Assembly (NCBI GenBank): GCA_002842095.1
Contig: PHCB01000004.1
Span: 1 to 64,000 of the forward strand
Direction: 5' to 3'
Length of the DNA stretch: 64,000 nucleotides
DNA from: a candidate division BRC1 bacterium HGW-BRC1-1
GTDB taxonomy: Bacteria; Sumerlaeota; Sumerlaeia; Sumerlaeales; Sumerlaeaceae
In this document: piece by piece, positions 47,229 to 54,826 of the stretch
Layout of the letters: each line of letters opens with the position of its first letter
Position numbering within the stretch: the stretch's first letter is position 1
Translations under genes and position numbers: made by a program
Notes under the pieces: generated by a model
What the model saw: the letters and a program-made list of their open reading frames with translations, nothing else
The model's database searches: none
Told to the model about the DNA's origin: nothing

Positions 47229-50200
47229 TTAGTAGAGTTCGAGGTGCGAGAGGTTCACCGGAACAGAGTCGAAGTTGATGGTCACATTGTCCAGCCAGGT
47301 TCCCTCGTTGGTGGCTGGTGCGCCGCTGTGGTTCTCGCGGAACCCGACTTGGAAAGACCCGCTTGTCGGTCCGCCAGCGGGGATCGGGCCGGAATACACC
47401 GTGACCCCGTTGATCTTCGCGAGGAGCCGGTCACCCGCAGCGGAGGGGTTGACCGAGAGACGGAAGTTGGTCCAGGTGCCGTTGGTCACGCCGACTTCCG
47501 CGAGGGTCTTGCTGGCGAGCAGGGTAACCGGGGTGGCATCCATGTTGTCGTTTGACGCATGGACGAACTCGAACACGCCCGGATGATCGGGGCGTCCGTC
47601 GTTGAGGCCGACACCCGCCGCGTTCTCGAAGATCAGCCAGTAACCGGACTCGTAACCGGAAGCCGCCGGCGTAGGGCTGAAGAAGGTGCTCCCCTGGCTG
47701 CCGCAGATCCCAACCCCGATTGCTTGAAGCGGATGGGCCGACGAGGTGGCGAAAATCTCGCCGGTGACATTATATCCGAAGCTGGCCGCCCCGAGCGACG
47801 GGCCGCCGAAGAACGCCTGAATCCCGCCGCCGCTTGTGTCAACGCAGCGGTAGACATTTCCGCCGCTTGGCGACGCGCCCACCTGCGACGCTGTAACGCC
47901 CAGGGTCTGGTAAGTCTGAACCGCGTCCGTTGGCGCGGATGTGAAATTCCATGTCACGGGAAAGGACGAGACCGCTCCGTTTGCCGTTCCGGGCGAGGCC
48001 ACCTGCGCCGAGAAATCGGCGGCATTCACCCATGTGTTAGCGCCGTCGGGGTAGCGGCCCAGCGCGTAGCCGTTGCCGCTGCTGTCGGTGCCGTTGCCCG
48101 CCCCGCCGACCCATGGATAACCGTTCTGGGTAACCAGCGGATCGTTGTTGCCGTCGAGCAAACCGGGCCCGCCGAACATCTTGTAAGCGACGGCATCGTA
48201 GATGGCACCCGCACCGGTGTCGTAGAGCTGGATCGCGTCTGGATCTCCGGCTTGCATCGTGCCGGAGGCAAAGGTCAGATCAACATTGGGGACGCCGCTC
48301 ACTCCGACGACAAAGTGTCCGAAACCGCCGCCGTCATTGGGGATCAACTGGCCGCCCAGATTCGTCGTCGAGTATGCCGCCCCGTTGCTTCCATCCACAA
48401 GCCGCAGTTGCATACCAGCGGGGAACGCGCCGGCCGGACCGTAGATCTCGACAAACTGGGTCGCGCCGGTCGCATAGCGCAGTTCGTTAATCACATAGTT
48501 CTTCGCCTGCGGGTTTACCTTCGTGAAGCGCAGCTCGTCGAGGTAGATATTGCCCGATCCCGCGGTACCGCCGCCCTCGATGAGGAAGCCGACACAGGCG
48601 ATATCGCGTGCGCCGCCGCCGGCCGTGTTGAGGACGCCGTTGCCATCGGTGAACTCGTTGAAGTTCGTGTTGTAGGCCGACACCCCCACGCTGGTGAGGT
48701 CCAGTTCGAATGTGCGCCAGCCCGCTGCGTTCAGCGAGTTCTGCGGCCCCATCTCCACCTGGCCGTTGCCGTCCATGATCATGAAACGCAGCGTGCGCCC
48801 TGCATACGCAGAGGCCGTGTAAACATCGACCGAGACCTTCGAGTTGATATCGAACAGCGCCTTCGCCGCAAGGCGGTCAGCTACGCTGGTCAGGTTAAAG
48901 TCGCCGAGGATTTCGTGGCGGAAAAAGATCTTGCTGCCGGCAGTCGAGGTGAAGTTGAAGGCGAGGTTTGCGCTGTTGTCGCTGTTGGCAGGCTTGCCAG
49001 CGCCGGCCGGGGTTGCCGCGATAACCACCGAGGAACCGTTGTTGCCCACATCGTCCGTCCCCTCGTCCGGGTCGCGCCAGCGCGGCTCGAGGATCTCGAA
49101 CTTGTCTATGTCGTAAGTGCGCGTTCCGGGCGGGGAGAAAATGTCCTGCACGGCCTGATAGATCTGCGGGTAGGTGCGGTGGCGCGACACCACGGCACCT
49201 GCCTCCATGTCGTATGCCTTGAAACCATCGAAGTAGTCGTCGCACATCCACATGAGCGACCAGAACGCCACACCGCGTAACTTGCGCCCGGTCTGCTCCG
49301 CACCCATCCAGCTGCGAATCGGCCGCATCTTCACCGCCAGCGAGAACTCGTCGTCATAATTATAGGTGTCATAGTCAACGCCGTTGGAATACGAGTACCA
49401 GAGCGAGTTGGACGCATCGTGATACTGACGGCTGCGCAGCGGCGAGCCGAGCGTGGTGTCGAATCGGGCCGTGGTGAATCCGACCGAGCCGATGTTTGCA
49501 TTCTTCGTTGCGCCATAGGCGGATGTTGCCGTTTCCATGGAGTAACCGTAGGTGGGCAGCGTCAGCACCATCTTCTCCGGCGGGCAGCCGGCCGCGAGGA
49601 AGTTATCCACCTGTCCGTCATAGCTGGCGTCGGGTGCGATGGCTGTGGCTGTCGAACTCCAGGACCCGGACCACGGGTAGCAACTGAAGTTCATAAAATC
49701 GAGATTCGCCGCCCAGGCACCGGGTGCGTCGTTTGATGCGTTATAGGTGGGGCCGACATACAAGGACAGCTCTTTGGGGGCGATGGCTGCCTTGAGCTCG
49801 GCGAGAAAGAGCGTGATACCGTCGCGGGTATCAGTGCCATAGGGCTGAGGTTCAAAGTCGAGATTCACGCCCGCGCAATTGCCGCCCCCCGCGGCGATCA
49901 GGTCGGTAATGGAGGTAACCAGCGCGGCGCGCAGGCTGGGGCTTTGAATAACGGTGCTGAGCGTGGATGCGGAGAATCCTCCGTTTCGAACGCACATGAG
50001 CACCTTCACGCCGTGCAGGTCGGCGGCACCGCCGGGTTTGAACTCGGGAGCGCGGTTGGTCCAGGTCGAGGGGTTCGTAATTGCGGCGCTCGCGTCGAAG
50101 TCGACAAACGGGCAGGCGACATGCGTGAGGGCGTGCCACGGGTAGCTGTCCGCGGGTACGGAGCTTTGCACATAACCCATCACGACAAACTCGTCGGACT

Positions 50201-50399
50201 TGACGGCGGGAGTGACCGCTCGTGTGCTCGGCCCGGGCGCAGTCAGAGTGGCCAGCTTCACTCCGGTCAGGCCAGTGACTGCTTCGGTGCCGAGTTCACG
50301 CATCTGGTCAGTATTGGGACCCGAAGCCGTTTGAGCGCCACCAATCGAAACAAGCGCCGCAAGAATGAGGATAGGTAATGTGAGCAAATGTTTTGGCAT
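47229..50399 (-). CDS. Large secreted GH18 glycoside hydrolase with lamin-tail-like and lectin-like domains
   Basis: The 1056-residue protein has a signal peptide (about residues 1-22) and a GH18 barrel at about residues 65-415, with the catalytic strand reading AGVNLDFEP near 173-182; the usual DGxDxDxE has Asn at its first Asp position, but the D-x-E pair is kept. A beta-sandwich (about 425-625), a lamin-tail-like domain starting KNYVINELRYATG near 632, and a C-terminal concanavalin-like domain (about 815-1045) follow. The protein ends VNLSHLELY. GH18 enzymes cut chitin or N-glycans. CGGAGG precedes the ATG. The C-terminal domains probably bind substrate or the cell surface. Confidence 0.85.
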   Translation of the reverse strand: MPKHLLTLPILILAALVSIGGAQTASGPNTDQMRELGTEAVTGLTGVKLATLTAPGPSTRAVTPAVKSDEFVVMGYVQSSVPADSYPWHALTHVACPFVDFDASAAITNPSTWTNRAPEFKPGGAADLHGVKVLMCVRNGGFSASTLSTVIQSPSLRAALVTSITDLIAAGGGNCAGVNLDFEPQPYGTDTRDGITLFLAELKAAIAPKELSLYVGPTYNASNDAPGAWAANLDFMNFSCYPWSGSWSSTATAIAPDASYDGQVDNFLAAGCPPEKMVLTLPTYGYSMETATSAYGATKNANIGSVGFTTARFDTTLGSPLRSRQYHDASNSLWYSYSNGVDYDTYNYDDEFSLAVKMRPIRSWMGAEQTGRKLRGVAFWSLMWMCDDYFDGFKAYDMEAGAVVSRHRTYPQIYQAVQDIFSPPGTRTYDIDKFEILEPRWRDPDEGTDDVGNNGSSVVIAATPAGAGKPANSDNSANLAFNFTSTAGSKIFFRHEILGDFNLTSVADRLAAKALFDINSKVSVDVYTASAYAGRTLRFMIMDGNGQVEMGPQNSLNAAGWRTFELDLTSVGVSAYNTNFNEFTDGNGVLNTAGGGARDIACVGFLIEGGGTAGSGNIYLDELRFTKVNPQAKNYVINELRYATGATQFVEIYGPAGAFPAGMQLRLVDGSNGAAYSTTNLGGQLIPNDGGGFGHFVVGVSGVPNVDLTFASGTMQAGDPDAIQLYDTGAGAIYDAVAYKMFGGPGLLDGNNDPLVTQNGYPWVGGAGNGTDSSGNGYALGRYPDGANTWVNAADFSAQVASPGTANGAVSSFPVTWNFTSAPTDAVQTYQTLGVTASQVGASPSGGNVYRCVDTSGGGIQAFFGGPSLGAASFGYNVTGEIFATSSAHPLQAIGVGICGSQGSTFFSPTPAASGYESGYWLIFENAAGVGLNDGRPDHPGVFEFVHASNDNMDATPVTLLASKTLAEVGVTNGTWTNFRLSVNPSAAGDRLLAKINGVTVYSGPIPAGGPTSGSFQVGFRENHSGAPATNEGTWLDNVTINFDSVPVNLSHLELY

Positions 50400-50728
50400 C
50401 TGAACCTCCGAGTTTGGTTTATTGCATTTTCGATGGATTGGGCTGGTTGCAAATGATGCCCGCCCGTTTTTCCTCGGAGCAAAGCTTCAGTTCAGGCATG
50501 GTCAGTTAATCGGACCATGGTTTTCCAGATGAAAATGGATCGTGCCAGTGGGCGCGAACACATAGGTTGGCCCCTACGATAGGTGCGGGGCCGAGCATGT
50601 GCCATGCAATACGTCTGTGGAGGCGGAACCGAAAGTCTCCAAAACCGGGTTTTACCCCTTGACACCTTTGGGCGATTGGGCATTGCTGATAAGAGCATGT
50701 AATACAAATCATACGGGAGACATAAATC
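50400..50728. other. Divergent promoter region of two exported-protein genes
   Basis: No gene is present. The region must hold promoters for the leftward GH18 gene and the rightward tagged protein. A TTGACA box at 50659-50664 lies 65 bases before the rightward start, but a TATAAT-like box at the right distance is not clear (TTGCTG follows after 18 bases). Confidence 0.4.
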
Positions 50729-51664
50729 ATGAAGAAACTTTTGCTTTGCGTAGCAGCTATGGGCATCGCCAGTGGCGCGCTTGCCCAGGTGACGCTGACC
50801 AACACCGCAGTGGATTTTGCGACTGACAACGTGGGCAGCGTTTACGCCGCGACCTATTCGATCAGCGCCAACAAGTTCTTGGCGTCTAATGCGGGAACCA
50901 CGATCCGAATTTACAACGGTGACACGGGTGCGTATGAAGGCGATATGAATATCACCGGCGTCAACCCCACCGGCAATGGCATTTTTGCGCTGACGGCCGG
51001 CACTGACGGCTCCATCTTTGGCATGGAATCGGGTGCTTCTACATTGTGGCAGTGGAGCAGCACCGCGAGCGCACCAGTGAATGCCATCGCATCCGGCGTA
51101 CCCTTCAGCCGTGCGGGCGCGGTCATCGGAACGGGCAACACCACCAAGGTAGCACTGACCGGTTCCGCCAACAACGGCCCGATCACGGTTTTCTCCACGA
51201 CGGACGATGTGACCTATACGCTTTTGGAGACAATCGCGGCCAATGCAAAGAGCACCCTGGCAATCAACAGCGCCATCACCAAGACTTGGGGGATGCCTGA
51301 CAGTAGTCAGCCGATCGCGAAGACCGTTAACACCGGCTCATGGGCTGCCGATGCCGGTTTCGTTCCGGACGTTCTGACCAACTCCTCCACGTCGATGGTT
51401 TTCGACGAGATTAACAACGTTCTGTTCTCCGTCCAGGCCAGTACCGTTTACGCTCTTAATGCCGACACGGGCGCGCTGCTCGGCTCAACTGCAATAACCA
51501 ACGGATTCAGCACGACCCCCGGCTACGCTGGTGGCATTTGCAGCCCCACCGCTGGCGCGGGAACCGTTTGGTTCGCCGGTCGCGGTGCCACCGCCACCAA
51601 CGCTTCGCTGCACAAACTGACCTACACGGTCACGGCGGCGGTTTCGGACTGGTCCATTTACTGA
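50729..51664 (+). CDS. Exported repeat protein with C-terminal DWSIY peptide (I)
   Basis: The 311-residue protein has a signal peptide (MKKLLLCVAAMGIASGALAQ) and a Gly/Ala/Thr/Ser-rich, beta-strand-rich body, compatible with a propeller or beta-solenoid (repeated TIRIYNGDTGAYEG-like and TVYALNADTGALLG-like segments). No catalytic motif is seen. It ends AAVSDWSIY. The last five residues are the same as in the protein encoded at 52248-53273, although their codons differ. GGGAGA precedes the ATG. A strong terminator follows, so it is a single-gene unit. Function unknown; a surface or extracellular role is likely. Confidence 0.8.
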   Translation: MKKLLLCVAAMGIASGALAQVTLTNTAVDFATDNVGSVYAATYSISANKFLASNAGTTIRIYNGDTGAYEGDMNITGVNPTGNGIFALTAGTDGSIFGMESGASTLWQWSSTASAPVNAIASGVPFSRAGAVIGTGNTTKVALTGSANNGPITVFSTTDDVTYTLLETIAANAKSTLAINSAITKTWGMPDSSQPIAKTVNTGSWAADAGFVPDVLTNSSTSMVFDEINNVLFSVQASTVYALNADTGALLGSTAITNGFSTTPGYAGGICSPTAGAGTVWFAGRGATATNASLHKLTYTVTAAVSDWSIY

Positions 51665-51691
51665 TCAACGCACCACAACTGAAATGTATTC

Positions 51692-51723
51692 GGGCGGGCG
51701 CCGACAAGGTGCCCGCCCTTTTT
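51692..51723 (+). terminator. Strong intrinsic terminator
   Basis: GGGCGGGCGCC (51692-51702) pairs with GGTGCCCGCCC (51708-51718) over 11 base pairs with a GACAA loop, followed by five Ts. It lies 28 bases after the stop of the exported-protein gene. Confidence 0.92.
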
Positions 51724-51819
51724 CTTTGGGGGAAGAGCCTGCGACAGATCAAGCTTTCCGCCCCCATTACAACCGCCCAACTCCTCCACCCCCATCCACA
51801 CCCTCACGACTGGCCATCT

Positions 51820-51873
51820 CGTCCATATCGTCCATTTAGTCCAGAACGTCCATAACGTCCATCTCGTTCATCC
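51820..51873. repeat. 9-bp tandem repeat, six units
   Basis: Six head-to-tail units of consensus CGTCCATNN start at 51820, 51829, 51838, 51847, 51856 and 51865 (third unit AGTCCAGAA, last CGTTCATCC). Read on the minus strand the repeat is ATGGACG-like. Units are too short and contiguous to be a CRISPR array. Confidence 0.8.
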
Positions 51874-52186
51874 CAACGTCAGGCCTCCCACCGCCGCCAA
51901 TCCCCGCGCCAAAACCCCGCCCCTATTCCGTATTTGCCCTCAGCGCGGGCGCGGCATGGTGCCGGGCGGTGGAGGGACCGCAGCGACCGGACCCCCCGGA
52001 ACCAGCCCAACAAGAATTCCCGCCCCAGCGGGACGGCGGGTCCGGCTCTCCATGTTTGCCATAACCAAACAATTCCATCCCTATCCGTGGTCTCAGGTTT
52101 GCCTCCTGATCACGCACCCGCTGTCTCCAACCTCATCCAACCGGTATGCCGTCCGGCCCGTGCTCAAAGCCTCACCAAATGAAAAA

Positions 52187-52216
52187 GCGGGGACAGGCCA
52201 CAAGGCCCATCCCCGC
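52187..52216 (-). terminator. Intrinsic terminator of the leftward tagged-protein gene
   Basis: GCGGGG pairs with CCCCGC and GGCC with GGCC in one two-part hairpin; five As on the plus strand (52182-52186) give the T run on the minus strand. It lies 31 bases after the stop of the gene at 52248-53273. Confidence 0.9.
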
Positions 52217-52247
52217 CATAAAACGCGGTCTTTGCAGACCAGATTGC

Positions 52248-53273
52248 TTAGTAGATGCTCCAGTCGGCAACCGAGGAGGCGCCGAGGCTGTAAACGTGCA
52301 CCTGGTTCGGGGCACCCGCGTCAGGCGAAGCCGAGTTAGCAACGAACAGGTAGTCTGTGCCACCGATGTTTGCCGTCACGACGCCACGGATGTTGCCGTT
52401 AAAGTTCGTCGTGTCTTCGAAGGAGAGATCGCTCACGCCCGTGGCCGTGTTAACGAATTTAATGCTGGGGTTGTTCGCTGCCGGGGTCGGGCCTACACTG
52501 CCTGTATTCACGAACAGCATCCAGCTCTCGGCACCGCGACTGAAAGGTGCAATGCCGATCGTGGCGGGTGAACCCTCGCTGAAATCGGGGCCATACCACT
52601 CAACAAAGGTGTACTGGGTCAGGTTGCCAGGCGTCGCTCCCGGTGTTACCTTTCCAAGCTTGTGACCAGCCGGGGCAGCCGTGGTGTTCGTGTTAGCATA
52701 ATAGATGATCCCGGTGCTGTCTACCTGGATCTTACGGATTGGAGCACGCCAACCAACAGAGGGCAGTACGGAATCCGACGCTTCATTTGTCAGGTCCGAC
52801 TTCTTGATGGTAATGAGCGTGCTCGAGTTCGACTTGCCTGCAACAAGGCTGTCGGAGTCGAGGGACGCGACGCAGACCAGACGCGTGGCAGCCAGATTGG
52901 TCTTCCGCAGTTCAGCACCAGCCGCGTTGTACACGCCAATGAAACCGTCTGTGCCGTTGTCGCCACTGACGTAGAATTCATTGTTGTCAAACATGATGCC
53001 CTGCGGACCACGTCCCGAGCCCCAAACGGTGGCGGCGGAAACGTCGGTGAACAGCGAAACGGCCTCGGTACCGGCTGGCGTGGTAACCTTGGCGACCTTT
53101 TTGTCGTTGAAGCCAAGCACGTACAGGTCGCCAGCGACGGCAATGACATCGACCGGGGCCTGACAAACCGTGCCCACATTGATATTCTTAACAAACGTAG
53201 GTGTCGGCGGAGCAGCAACAGCAACAGCTGCCAAAGCCGAAACTGCTAAAGTTGAAACTAATAGCTTCTTCAT
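52248..53273 (-). CDS. Exported propeller-like protein with C-terminal DWSIY peptide (II)
   Basis: The 341-residue protein has a signal peptide (MKKLLVSTLAVSALAAVAVA) and a body of repeated strands such as DVIAVAGDLYVLGFNDKKVA, GRGPQGIMFDNNEFYVSG and SLDSDSLVAGKSNSSTL, typical of a beta propeller. It ends SSVADWSIY, like the protein at 50729-51664 (SDWSIY). The two bodies share no obvious sequence, so the tail is the shared unit. GGGAGG lies about 11 bases before the ATG. Monocistronic, with its own terminator. Function unknown. Confidence 0.8.
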   Translation of the reverse strand: MKKLLVSTLAVSALAAVAVAAPPTPTFVKNINVGTVCQAPVDVIAVAGDLYVLGFNDKKVAKVTTPAGTEAVSLFTDVSAATVWGSGRGPQGIMFDNNEFYVSGDNGTDGFIGVYNAAGAELRKTNLAATRLVCVASLDSDSLVAGKSNSSTLITIKKSDLTNEASDSVLPSVGWRAPIRKIQVDSTGIIYYANTNTTAAPAGHKLGKVTPGATPGNLTQYTFVEWYGPDFSEGSPATIGIAPFSRGAESWMLFVNTGSVGPTPAANNPSIKFVNTATGVSDLSFEDTTNFNGNIRGVVTANIGGTDYLFVANSASPDAGAPNQVHVYSLGASSVADWSIY

Positions 53274-53620: not shown

Positions 53621-54826
53621 ATGCTTATTTCCCGGCTCCTCCAACACCTGCCTCCCCTATCCCTCGCACTCCTTCTCGTTGCATGTGACTCATCCAAGAA
53701 TGAAGTCGCAGACGTTCCGGTTGCCCCAGGCAAGCCCTCCGTGGAACAGTCTGTTTTTTTCACAGAAGGTACTCCCCTCAGCGTTAATGGGATCGCAGCC
53801 CAAGCCAGTCTGGCTTCAACCGATGAAATTCGCATCCGCGTGGCCGACCAGCAGGGACGCTCCATGCTACCCTATGTTCGCGCGGCAGCATTTGTGAACG
53901 GCCTCGAAGACGCCCCCCTCAGCGCCACGCGCAGTGCGAACGACAGATACCTCTCCATCCCCCTGCCGAAGTCCGTCGAAACTCCGTACTCCACGACCAT
54001 CGAGTTGGTGGACGCTCGTGTGCTTATATCTAATAAAATCCCCGTGACATTCGCCAGCATACAGCCCTCTGCCGACGATCTGAAGATGGAAGGTCTTGAG
54101 GTCACCACCACCACGGCGGGCCTGAAAACCGCCATGGACGCCTATCTGAAGCGGATGACCAACGCCGTCAACGGTGGCGATTACGAGTTGGCCGTCACCC
54201 TCTCACCCGACTTCGTGGAGAGCGTTCGTGCTTACGCTGCAACCGCGTCCGTGGAAACAACCGCCATCAAGATGCTTCTCACAAAGATTTCGGAATCCCC
54301 CGAAATCCTGCAAAAAGCCGCCAAAGCCATGGATGACGGGACAATGGGCACCACGATAGAATCCCTTCAATACGACCTGCTGCCCGCTCTGGAAAGCAAC
54401 GTCATGCAGGCGATGCAATCATCCCCCCACAAGACTCCCGAGAATTTCACCACTCCCCGGGCGACGGTTTATATCGACCTGAACAAGAAGTCCGGCGAAG
54501 GCTTCTCCCCCACTGCGCTGGAAGTTCCCATGAACGTGCCCTTCATGCTCATCGTGCGCATGCCCGAGCCCGCCGACCACGCCTTTCGCCTGGCGCGGGT
54601 GGGAGATTTTGAAACGCCCGATTTCACATCCGACGCATCTTCCACTTCCACCCTCGCAACAGGCATTTACACACTTCCCCAAGGGAAGCACACGCTGGCC
54701 TGCATGAAACACCCCGGCGAGAAGTTGGAGATTTACGCTGGCATTGCGATACCCCCGCCCGCCGCTAAAACACCCGCCACCGCTGCCACCCTTGCGGCAA
54801 CTTCGGAAACCACCGACTCGCAATAA
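53621..54826 (+). CDS. Lipoprotein with a C-terminal cupredoxin-like domain
   Basis: The 401-residue protein has a lipobox (LLVAC, Cys near residue 22). The N-terminal part is beta-rich to about 150 and the middle is helical (about 165-265). The C-terminal 120 residues look like a cupredoxin: H320 (DHAF), then C361 and H364 in LACMKHPGEKLEI, with Leu at the axial position where Met is usual. If real, it would bind type 1 copper near the membrane. AAGGA lies 11 bases before the start. It is single or leads into the carbamoyltransferase gene 84 bases on. I do not recognise the first two domains. Confidence 0.7.
   Translation: MLISRLLQHLPPLSLALLLVACDSSKNEVADVPVAPGKPSVEQSVFFTEGTPLSVNGIAAQASLASTDEIRIRVADQQGRSMLPYVRAAAFVNGLEDAPLSATRSANDRYLSIPLPKSVETPYSTTIELVDARVLISNKIPVTFASIQPSADDLKMEGLEVTTTTAGLKTAMDAYLKRMTNAVNGGDYELAVTLSPDFVESVRAYAATASVETTAIKMLLTKISESPEILQKAAKAMDDGTMGTTIESLQYDLLPALESNVMQAMQSSPHKTPENFTTPRATVYIDLNKKSGEGFSPTALEVPMNVPFMLIVRMPEPADHAFRLARVGDFETPDFTSDASSTSTLATGIYTLPQGKHTLACMKHPGEKLEIYAGIAIPPPAAKTPATAATLAATSETTDSQ

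Follow-up and report, generated by a model that had tools for sequence, protein, structure and literature searches.

The short tails that end a set of Sec-exported, soluble proteins in the phylum Sumerlaeota are probably a modular C-terminal sorting signal with two interchangeable forms, as judged from sequence comparison. The starting point is a 64-kb stretch of contig PHCB01000004.1 (positions 1 to 64,000; the window) of the candidate division BRC1 bacterium HGW-BRC1-1, whose 3.77-Mb assembly (34 contigs, estimated completeness 94.8%) is called G000 here. The PurB protein encoded in the window has its best match in a named Candidatus Sumerlaeota genome, at 66% identity, followed by a second such genome at 57%. 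Two exported proteins encoded in the window, of 311 and 341 amino acids (aa), end AAVSDWSIY and SSVADWSIY, and a GH18 protein beside them ends PVNLSHLELY. The first form, tag A, is V-x-D-W-x-[ILVM]-[YF]-COOH, a genome-wide C-terminal motif in G000. The second, tag B, is P-V-x-[LV]-[ST/D]-x-F-x-x-[ED]-COOH, and the GH18 tail is B-like and not a member of class A. Together they form a post-Sec C-terminal tag system in two forms that is real and previously undescribed. The tails match no Pfam or NCBIfam model, DWSLY/DWxLY-type tags were not found in open paper text, and the matches found there for PVELS were unrelated.

A first-pass annotation of the window had proposed that the three tails share one pattern, [VL][AS]x[WL]x[IL]Y, and serve a dedicated export or anchoring machine. 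This idea is right in kind and wrong in the exact pattern, which just 8 of the 25 tagged proteins follow, because position -6 is free and position -5 is Asp.

Tag A is a conserved peptide

In a pattern search of the whole G000 genome, D-W-x-[ILVMF]-Y before a stop codon gave 22 matches, compared with 2 for the reversed control. All 22 end long open reading frames (ORFs) and have Val at -7, though Val was absent from the query, and with Val added (V-x-D-W-x-o-Y-stop) the count was 20 against 0. Outside the phylum, strict tag A occurred 7 times over 343 genomes, or about 0.02 per genome, in a set that leaves out the three outside carriers described below (G182, G319, and G304). The consensus of 26 G000 tails reads V (26/26), x, D (23/26), W (26/26), x, [ILVM] (26/26), Y (25/26), with the caveat that D, W, the -2 residue, and Y, unlike Val, were part of the query that gathered most of the tails. 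Positions -6 and -3 vary freely.

Codon usage indicates what is being conserved. Across 25 G000 tag A proteins, pairwise agreement at the V, D, and Y codons is 97% and 95% at the first and second bases and 48% at the third, which argues for selection on the peptide and not on the DNA. The two DWSIY genes of the window likewise use different codons, as the first-pass annotation had pointed out (GACTGGTCCATTTAC and GACTGGAGCATCTAC). Homologues with 27-61% identity in the body retain V, D or N, W, o, and Y, with changes at -6 and -3; the 341-aa protein, for example, has a 28.6%-identical homologue in G004 whose tag reads VGDWSLY.

Tagged proteins are exported and have unrelated bodies

The association with export was assessed in an unbiased sample of 556 kb, consisting of contig C8 and the contig of the window, in which a simple caller found 394 genes, 139 signal-peptide-like and 255 other; the fractions that follow are approximate because they rest on a home-made signal-peptide predictor that errs on the generous side. 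D-W-x-[ILVM]-Y is the terminus of 6/139 signal-peptide-like proteins and of 0/255 others (p 0.0018), so that the enrichment expected of an export signal is indeed present. For tags A and B together the figures are 9/139 and 0/255 (Fisher p 7e-5). The motif is also strictly terminal: all 6 occurrences of V/I/L-x-D-W-x-[ILVM]-Y in 165,907 residues are at C-termini. Type I signal peptides were recognized in 24 of the 25 tagged proteins and lipoprotein-type ones in none, and 0/17 lipoprotein-like proteins in the sample are tagged.

The bodies that precede the tag belong, by Pfam, to Exo_endo_phos, beta-helix, NAGPA+golvesin, GDPD+LamG, glucose/sorbosone dehydrogenase (GSDH), M14, S8, M23, SGBP_B, and TIG. 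These amount to about ten unrelated folds, and the tag is therefore not the closing strand of one fold. A linker enriched in Pro and Ala occupies the 13 residues ahead of the tag. Three phosphodiester glycosidase (NAGPA)+golvesin proteins, encoded at C8:103495-104835, C21:34268-36091, and C25:125071-126852, are all tagged (VKNWEMY, VPDWSLY, and VTDWCLY).

Tag B and the interchange of the two forms

The second class became apparent from orthologues of the GH18 protein. Some end in an A-like form (VRGWELY, VSSWELY, VSGWELY, VGDWLQY) and others in the B form (PVSVSRFEIE, PVELSVFSSE, PVELSGFMVD, PVELDLFQVD), such that behind a conserved GH18 C-terminal domain the tail alone changes type. A paralogue within G000 itself ends VAQWELY. 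The pattern P-V-x-[LV]-x-x-F-x-x-[ED]-stop gave 7 matches against 1 for the control in G000, and 15 against 0 in G009, 10 against 0 in G032, 8 against 0 in G002, and 7 against 0 in G018. Those of the matches that were read back mostly close long ORFs of the exported type; in G000, one match of the seven, which ends a 102-aa ORF (C2:35176), may be due to chance.

The closest view of the interchange comes from tandem golvesin-domain paralogues in G000 (C8:322889-326407 and 326700-330221), which are 78% identical over 1172 residues. One ends SSSVADWSIY, with tag A, and the other ends YNVPVSLSAFEVE (PVSLSAFEVE), with tag B. A hydrophobic residue at -7, an aromatic at -4, and a mostly hydrophobic residue at -2 are common to both tags, and a common reader is therefore plausible from their sequences; alternatively, two readers with different destinations may exist.

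Distribution across genomes

Strict tag A occurs at least once in 23/40 Sumerlaeota genomes and tag B in 18/40. At least two strict matches to A or B are present in 25/40 genomes of the phylum and in 3 of approximately 346 outside it. Beyond Sumerlaeota, tag A rises above chance only in family f158 (8 in G182 and 9 in G319) and in G304 (2; family f225), and tag B exceeds two only in G304 (9). The sole outside carrier of tag B is thus one of the three outside carriers of tag A, which suggests, at the level of sequence, that the two tags belong to one system. In G182, G319, and G304 nearly all of the tails are on signal-peptide proteins, and the phylogenetic spread of the tags is coherent. No obvious alternative tail was seen in samples of about 70-140 kb from each of the untagged families f2, f6, f9, and f10.

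How the tags might be read

An N-terminal signal peptide would take the protein through Sec and then be removed. A periplasmic receptor would next read the free C-terminal peptide through the hydrophobic -7, the aromatic -4, the hydrophobic -2, and the fixed end residue, perhaps in a PDZ-type groove or as an added beta-strand, and would pass the folded protein on to an apparatus for export across, or anchoring at, the outer membrane. For this apparatus a type II-like secretin system is the best guess, although an unlikely one; the chances of a wholly unknown machine are no lower. Tentatively, and with slightly less than even confidence, the tags may mark a new outer-membrane export or surface-anchoring pathway that reads a free C-terminal peptide of 7-10 residues in two flavours, without a membrane-embedded tag, and that operates in two or more lineages besides Sumerlaeota.

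Two features would suit a type II secretion system (T2SS): the tagged proteins have type I (Sec) signal peptides, and G000 has a T2SS-type GspD. The G000 GspD orthologue is 56% identical to the GspD of a T2SS-like operon recognized in G004 from gene order and sequence. Three secretin systems were seen in G000, namely a 1404-aa secretin adjoining PilM-like genes on the contig of the window (C31:125599-129813, minus strand), a PilMNOPQ-like cluster (C8:60-66 kb), and a lone GspD-like gene on C9. Prepilin genes adjoin two tagged loci on C8, an arrangement that looks like chance. G000 also has an exosortase (PF09721) gene at C23:29426-30151 (minus strand), though most of its tag-bearing relatives are without one.

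Several observations weigh against a dedicated sorting system. Recurrent neighbours of tagged genes belong to generic families only, with no receptor or translocase candidate among them. A secretin is present in 36/36 genomes, tagged and untagged alike, and is not discriminating; the weak T2SSK marker was found in 33/40, again in tagged and untagged genomes alike, and was missed in G000. Fifteen of the 40 genomes of the phylum show neither tag twice, and while several of these are incomplete, some are at least 92% complete (e.g., G016). One tagged ORF of 173 aa, ending VDDWTLY (C21:36337-36858, plus strand), has no recognizable signal peptide in any upstream frame and is possibly a truncated gene. 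Finally, the predictor and gene caller behind the export statistics, both of them home-made and generous, called 35% of the genes signal-peptide-like. The proposal of the first-pass annotation holds in that the motif is restricted to exported proteins, genome-wide and phylum-wide; for the dedicated machine that it envisaged, no co-occurring gene was found.

Alternative explanations

The tail could instead be structural, closing a shared beta-fold (a propeller or jelly-roll) as its last strand or capping it, and carry no signal, an alternative already raised in the first-pass annotation. Both DWSIY proteins of the window look propeller-like, many tagged bodies are beta-rich, and the motif might fold as a short strand. 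However, the range of folds, which includes Exo_endo_phos, GDPD, M14, S8, and M23, does not suit a structural element of one of them, nor do the different tails of the 78%-identical tandem paralogues, the two tail types borne by one GH18 C-terminal domain, or the Ala/Pro-enriched linker between body and tag. A structural role is very unlikely on these grounds. Also unlikely, if the least so of the alternatives, is that the tail serves not sorting but Prc/Deg-type PDZ proteases, as a handle for proteolysis or quality control in the periplasm. PDZ proteases such as DegS and Prc read hydrophobic C-terminal residues, and a short free C-terminus with a hydrophobic -2 and an aromatic -1 resembles, by analogy, their ligands. 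Tag B ends in Glu or Asp, unlike such ligands, and selection for a degradation handle on dozens of large secreted enzymes would be hard to explain. Furthermore, Prc/Deg proteases are near-universal, whereas the tags are taxonomically patchy.

A divergent signal of a known system (type IX, PEP-CTERM/exosortase, LPXTG/sortase, GlyGly-CTERM, or MYXO-CTERM) is largely refuted and less likely than a structural role. It would account for the shared logic of an N-terminal signal peptide, a modular tail, many substrates per genome, and tail swaps within families, the last being the argument made for GlyGly-CTERM (PMC3237569), as well as for the exosortase gene in G000. Nevertheless, exosortase is present in only 2/21 genomes picked for carrying tag A, and the untagged G008 has it as well. 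The type IX tail model TIGR04183 is at chance, with no match in G000 and no more than 1 in each of 39 relatives, and SprA (TIGR04189) is in none of the 40 phylum genomes; the outgroup G040 has 82 such tails and SprA. Among the 25 tagged proteins, one has a basic residue within the last 7 positions, one has a near-end hydrophobic stretch, which is marginal, and none has a transmembrane helix or basic cluster at its C-terminus. Sortase-, rhombosortase-, and myxosortase-type tags therefore do not fit, and the lack of any matching family model adds to this. Least likely of all are functionless suffixes that duplication and recombination have spread. In favour of this reading, several of the tagged proteins are paralogous to one another, among them the three NAGPA+golvesin proteins, and the tails can move as modules. 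Against this stand third codon positions that are near random beside fixed first and second ones, five positions that hold in homologues with diverged bodies while -6 and -3 vary, and an exact 7-residue length at the end that is kept in unrelated genera. A modular sorting signal remains the reading that we favour.

The tagged genes of the window

The three genes and their tails are listed in Table 1. As the first-pass annotation had described, all three proteins have a predicted signal peptide, and the two DWSIY proteins have different bodies: the tail is the sole part that BLASTP aligns convincingly, and neither protein reaches the cut-off of any Pfam family. Single-sequence AlphaFold models of these two proteins were uninformative (mean predicted local distance difference test scores of 32 and 38). 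Of the clean terminators ascribed to the genes, strong terminator-like hairpins were found directly behind both DWSIY genes; none was found behind the GH18 gene. An untagged lipoprotein-like gene of 401 aa adjoins the tagged genes (53621-54826, plus strand), and its C-terminal region reads as a cupredoxin-type fold.

Table 1. Coordinates of the tagged genes, their tails, and associated features in the window.
Feature	Position	Strand	Details
Exported propeller-like protein, 311 aa, tag A carrier	50729..51664	+	ORF; signal peptide MKKLLLCVAAMGIASGALA; no Pfam/NCBIfam family
Tag A V-S-D-W-S-I-Y, free C-terminus of 311-aa protein	51641..51661	+	GTTTCGGACTGGTCCATTTAC then TGA
Terminator-like hairpin, 11 pairs and T-run, directly 3' of 311-aa tag A gene	51692..51718	+	
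Exported propeller-like protein, 341 aa, tag A carrier	52248..53273	-	ORF; signal peptide
Tag A V-A-D-W-S-I-Y, free C-terminus of 341-aa protein	52251..52271	-	
Terminator-like hairpin, 14 pairs and T-run, 3' of 341-aa tag A gene	52186..52217	-	
Exported GH18 protein, 1056 aa, B-like tail	47229..50399	-	ORF; PF00704 E 2.2e-23, residues 73-382; signal peptide
B-like tail P-V-N-L-S-H-L-E-L-Y of GH18 protein	47232..47261	-	
Conserved C-terminal domain of GH18 protein, last 227 residues	47232..47912	-	Matches in 19/40 Sumerlaeota genomes

Significance and comparison with known systems

C-terminal sorting tags have historically been a route to whole protein-processing systems. The PEP-CTERM tag led to the discovery of exosortase. 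In the same way, the GlyGly-CTERM tag led to rhombosortase (PMC3237569). A membrane helix, a basic cluster, and a folded domain are all absent from tags A and B, which sets them apart from those precedents. The tag is well defined and its patchy phylogenetic profile suits profiling for a reader gene, while the C8 tandem paralogues are a natural tag-swap pair. For a phylum whose members are known mostly through metagenomes, the tags also make it possible to catalogue part of the secretome.

Tags A and B resemble the PEP-CTERM/exosortase (EpsH) system in the combination of an N-terminal signal peptide with a short C-terminal tag on many unrelated exported proteins, and in their sporadic spread. 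They differ in that they have no PEP motif, transmembrane helix, or basic cluster, and exosortase is missing from 19/21 tag A-carrier genomes. GlyGly-CTERM and MYXO-CTERM tags consist of a motif, a transmembrane helix, and basic residues (PMC3237569; PMC11980579). With GlyGly-CTERM/rhombosortase and MYXO-CTERM the new tags share tail swapping within families as a diagnostic and a many-to-one relationship of proteins to tag; they have neither the helix nor the basic residues. LPXTG-type motifs, with their transmembrane helix and basic tail, are likewise not found in tags A and B, and this architecture excludes a sortase tag.

The type IX system (TIGR04183/PorSS) is similar in that its Sec-exported surface or secreted proteins, most of them beta-rich, carry their signal at the C-terminus, and in having two signal classes in one organism, but its signal is a domain of approximately 70 residues, compared with the 7-10 residues of tags A and B; the differences from PEP-CTERM and type IX in both sequence and architecture were correctly anticipated by the first-pass annotation. 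The signal of the beta-barrel assembly machinery (BAM), the beta-signal, shares the extreme C-terminal position and, for tag A, the aromatic last residue. However, Pfam assigns the tagged bodies to soluble enzymes and binding domains and not to barrels, tag B ends in Glu or Asp, and the V(-7) W(-4) spacing differs. Type II secretion (GspC/GspD) also handles folded, Sec-exported substrates of unrelated folds, and GspD is present in G000 and an operon in G004. Its substrates elsewhere are said to have no common linear sequence and to use composite loops instead (PMC7949064), and the co-occurrence of T2SS with the tags is not discriminating. If the reader were nonetheless a type II-like system, the tags would be linear secretion signals in a pathway that is considered to use none (PMC7949064).

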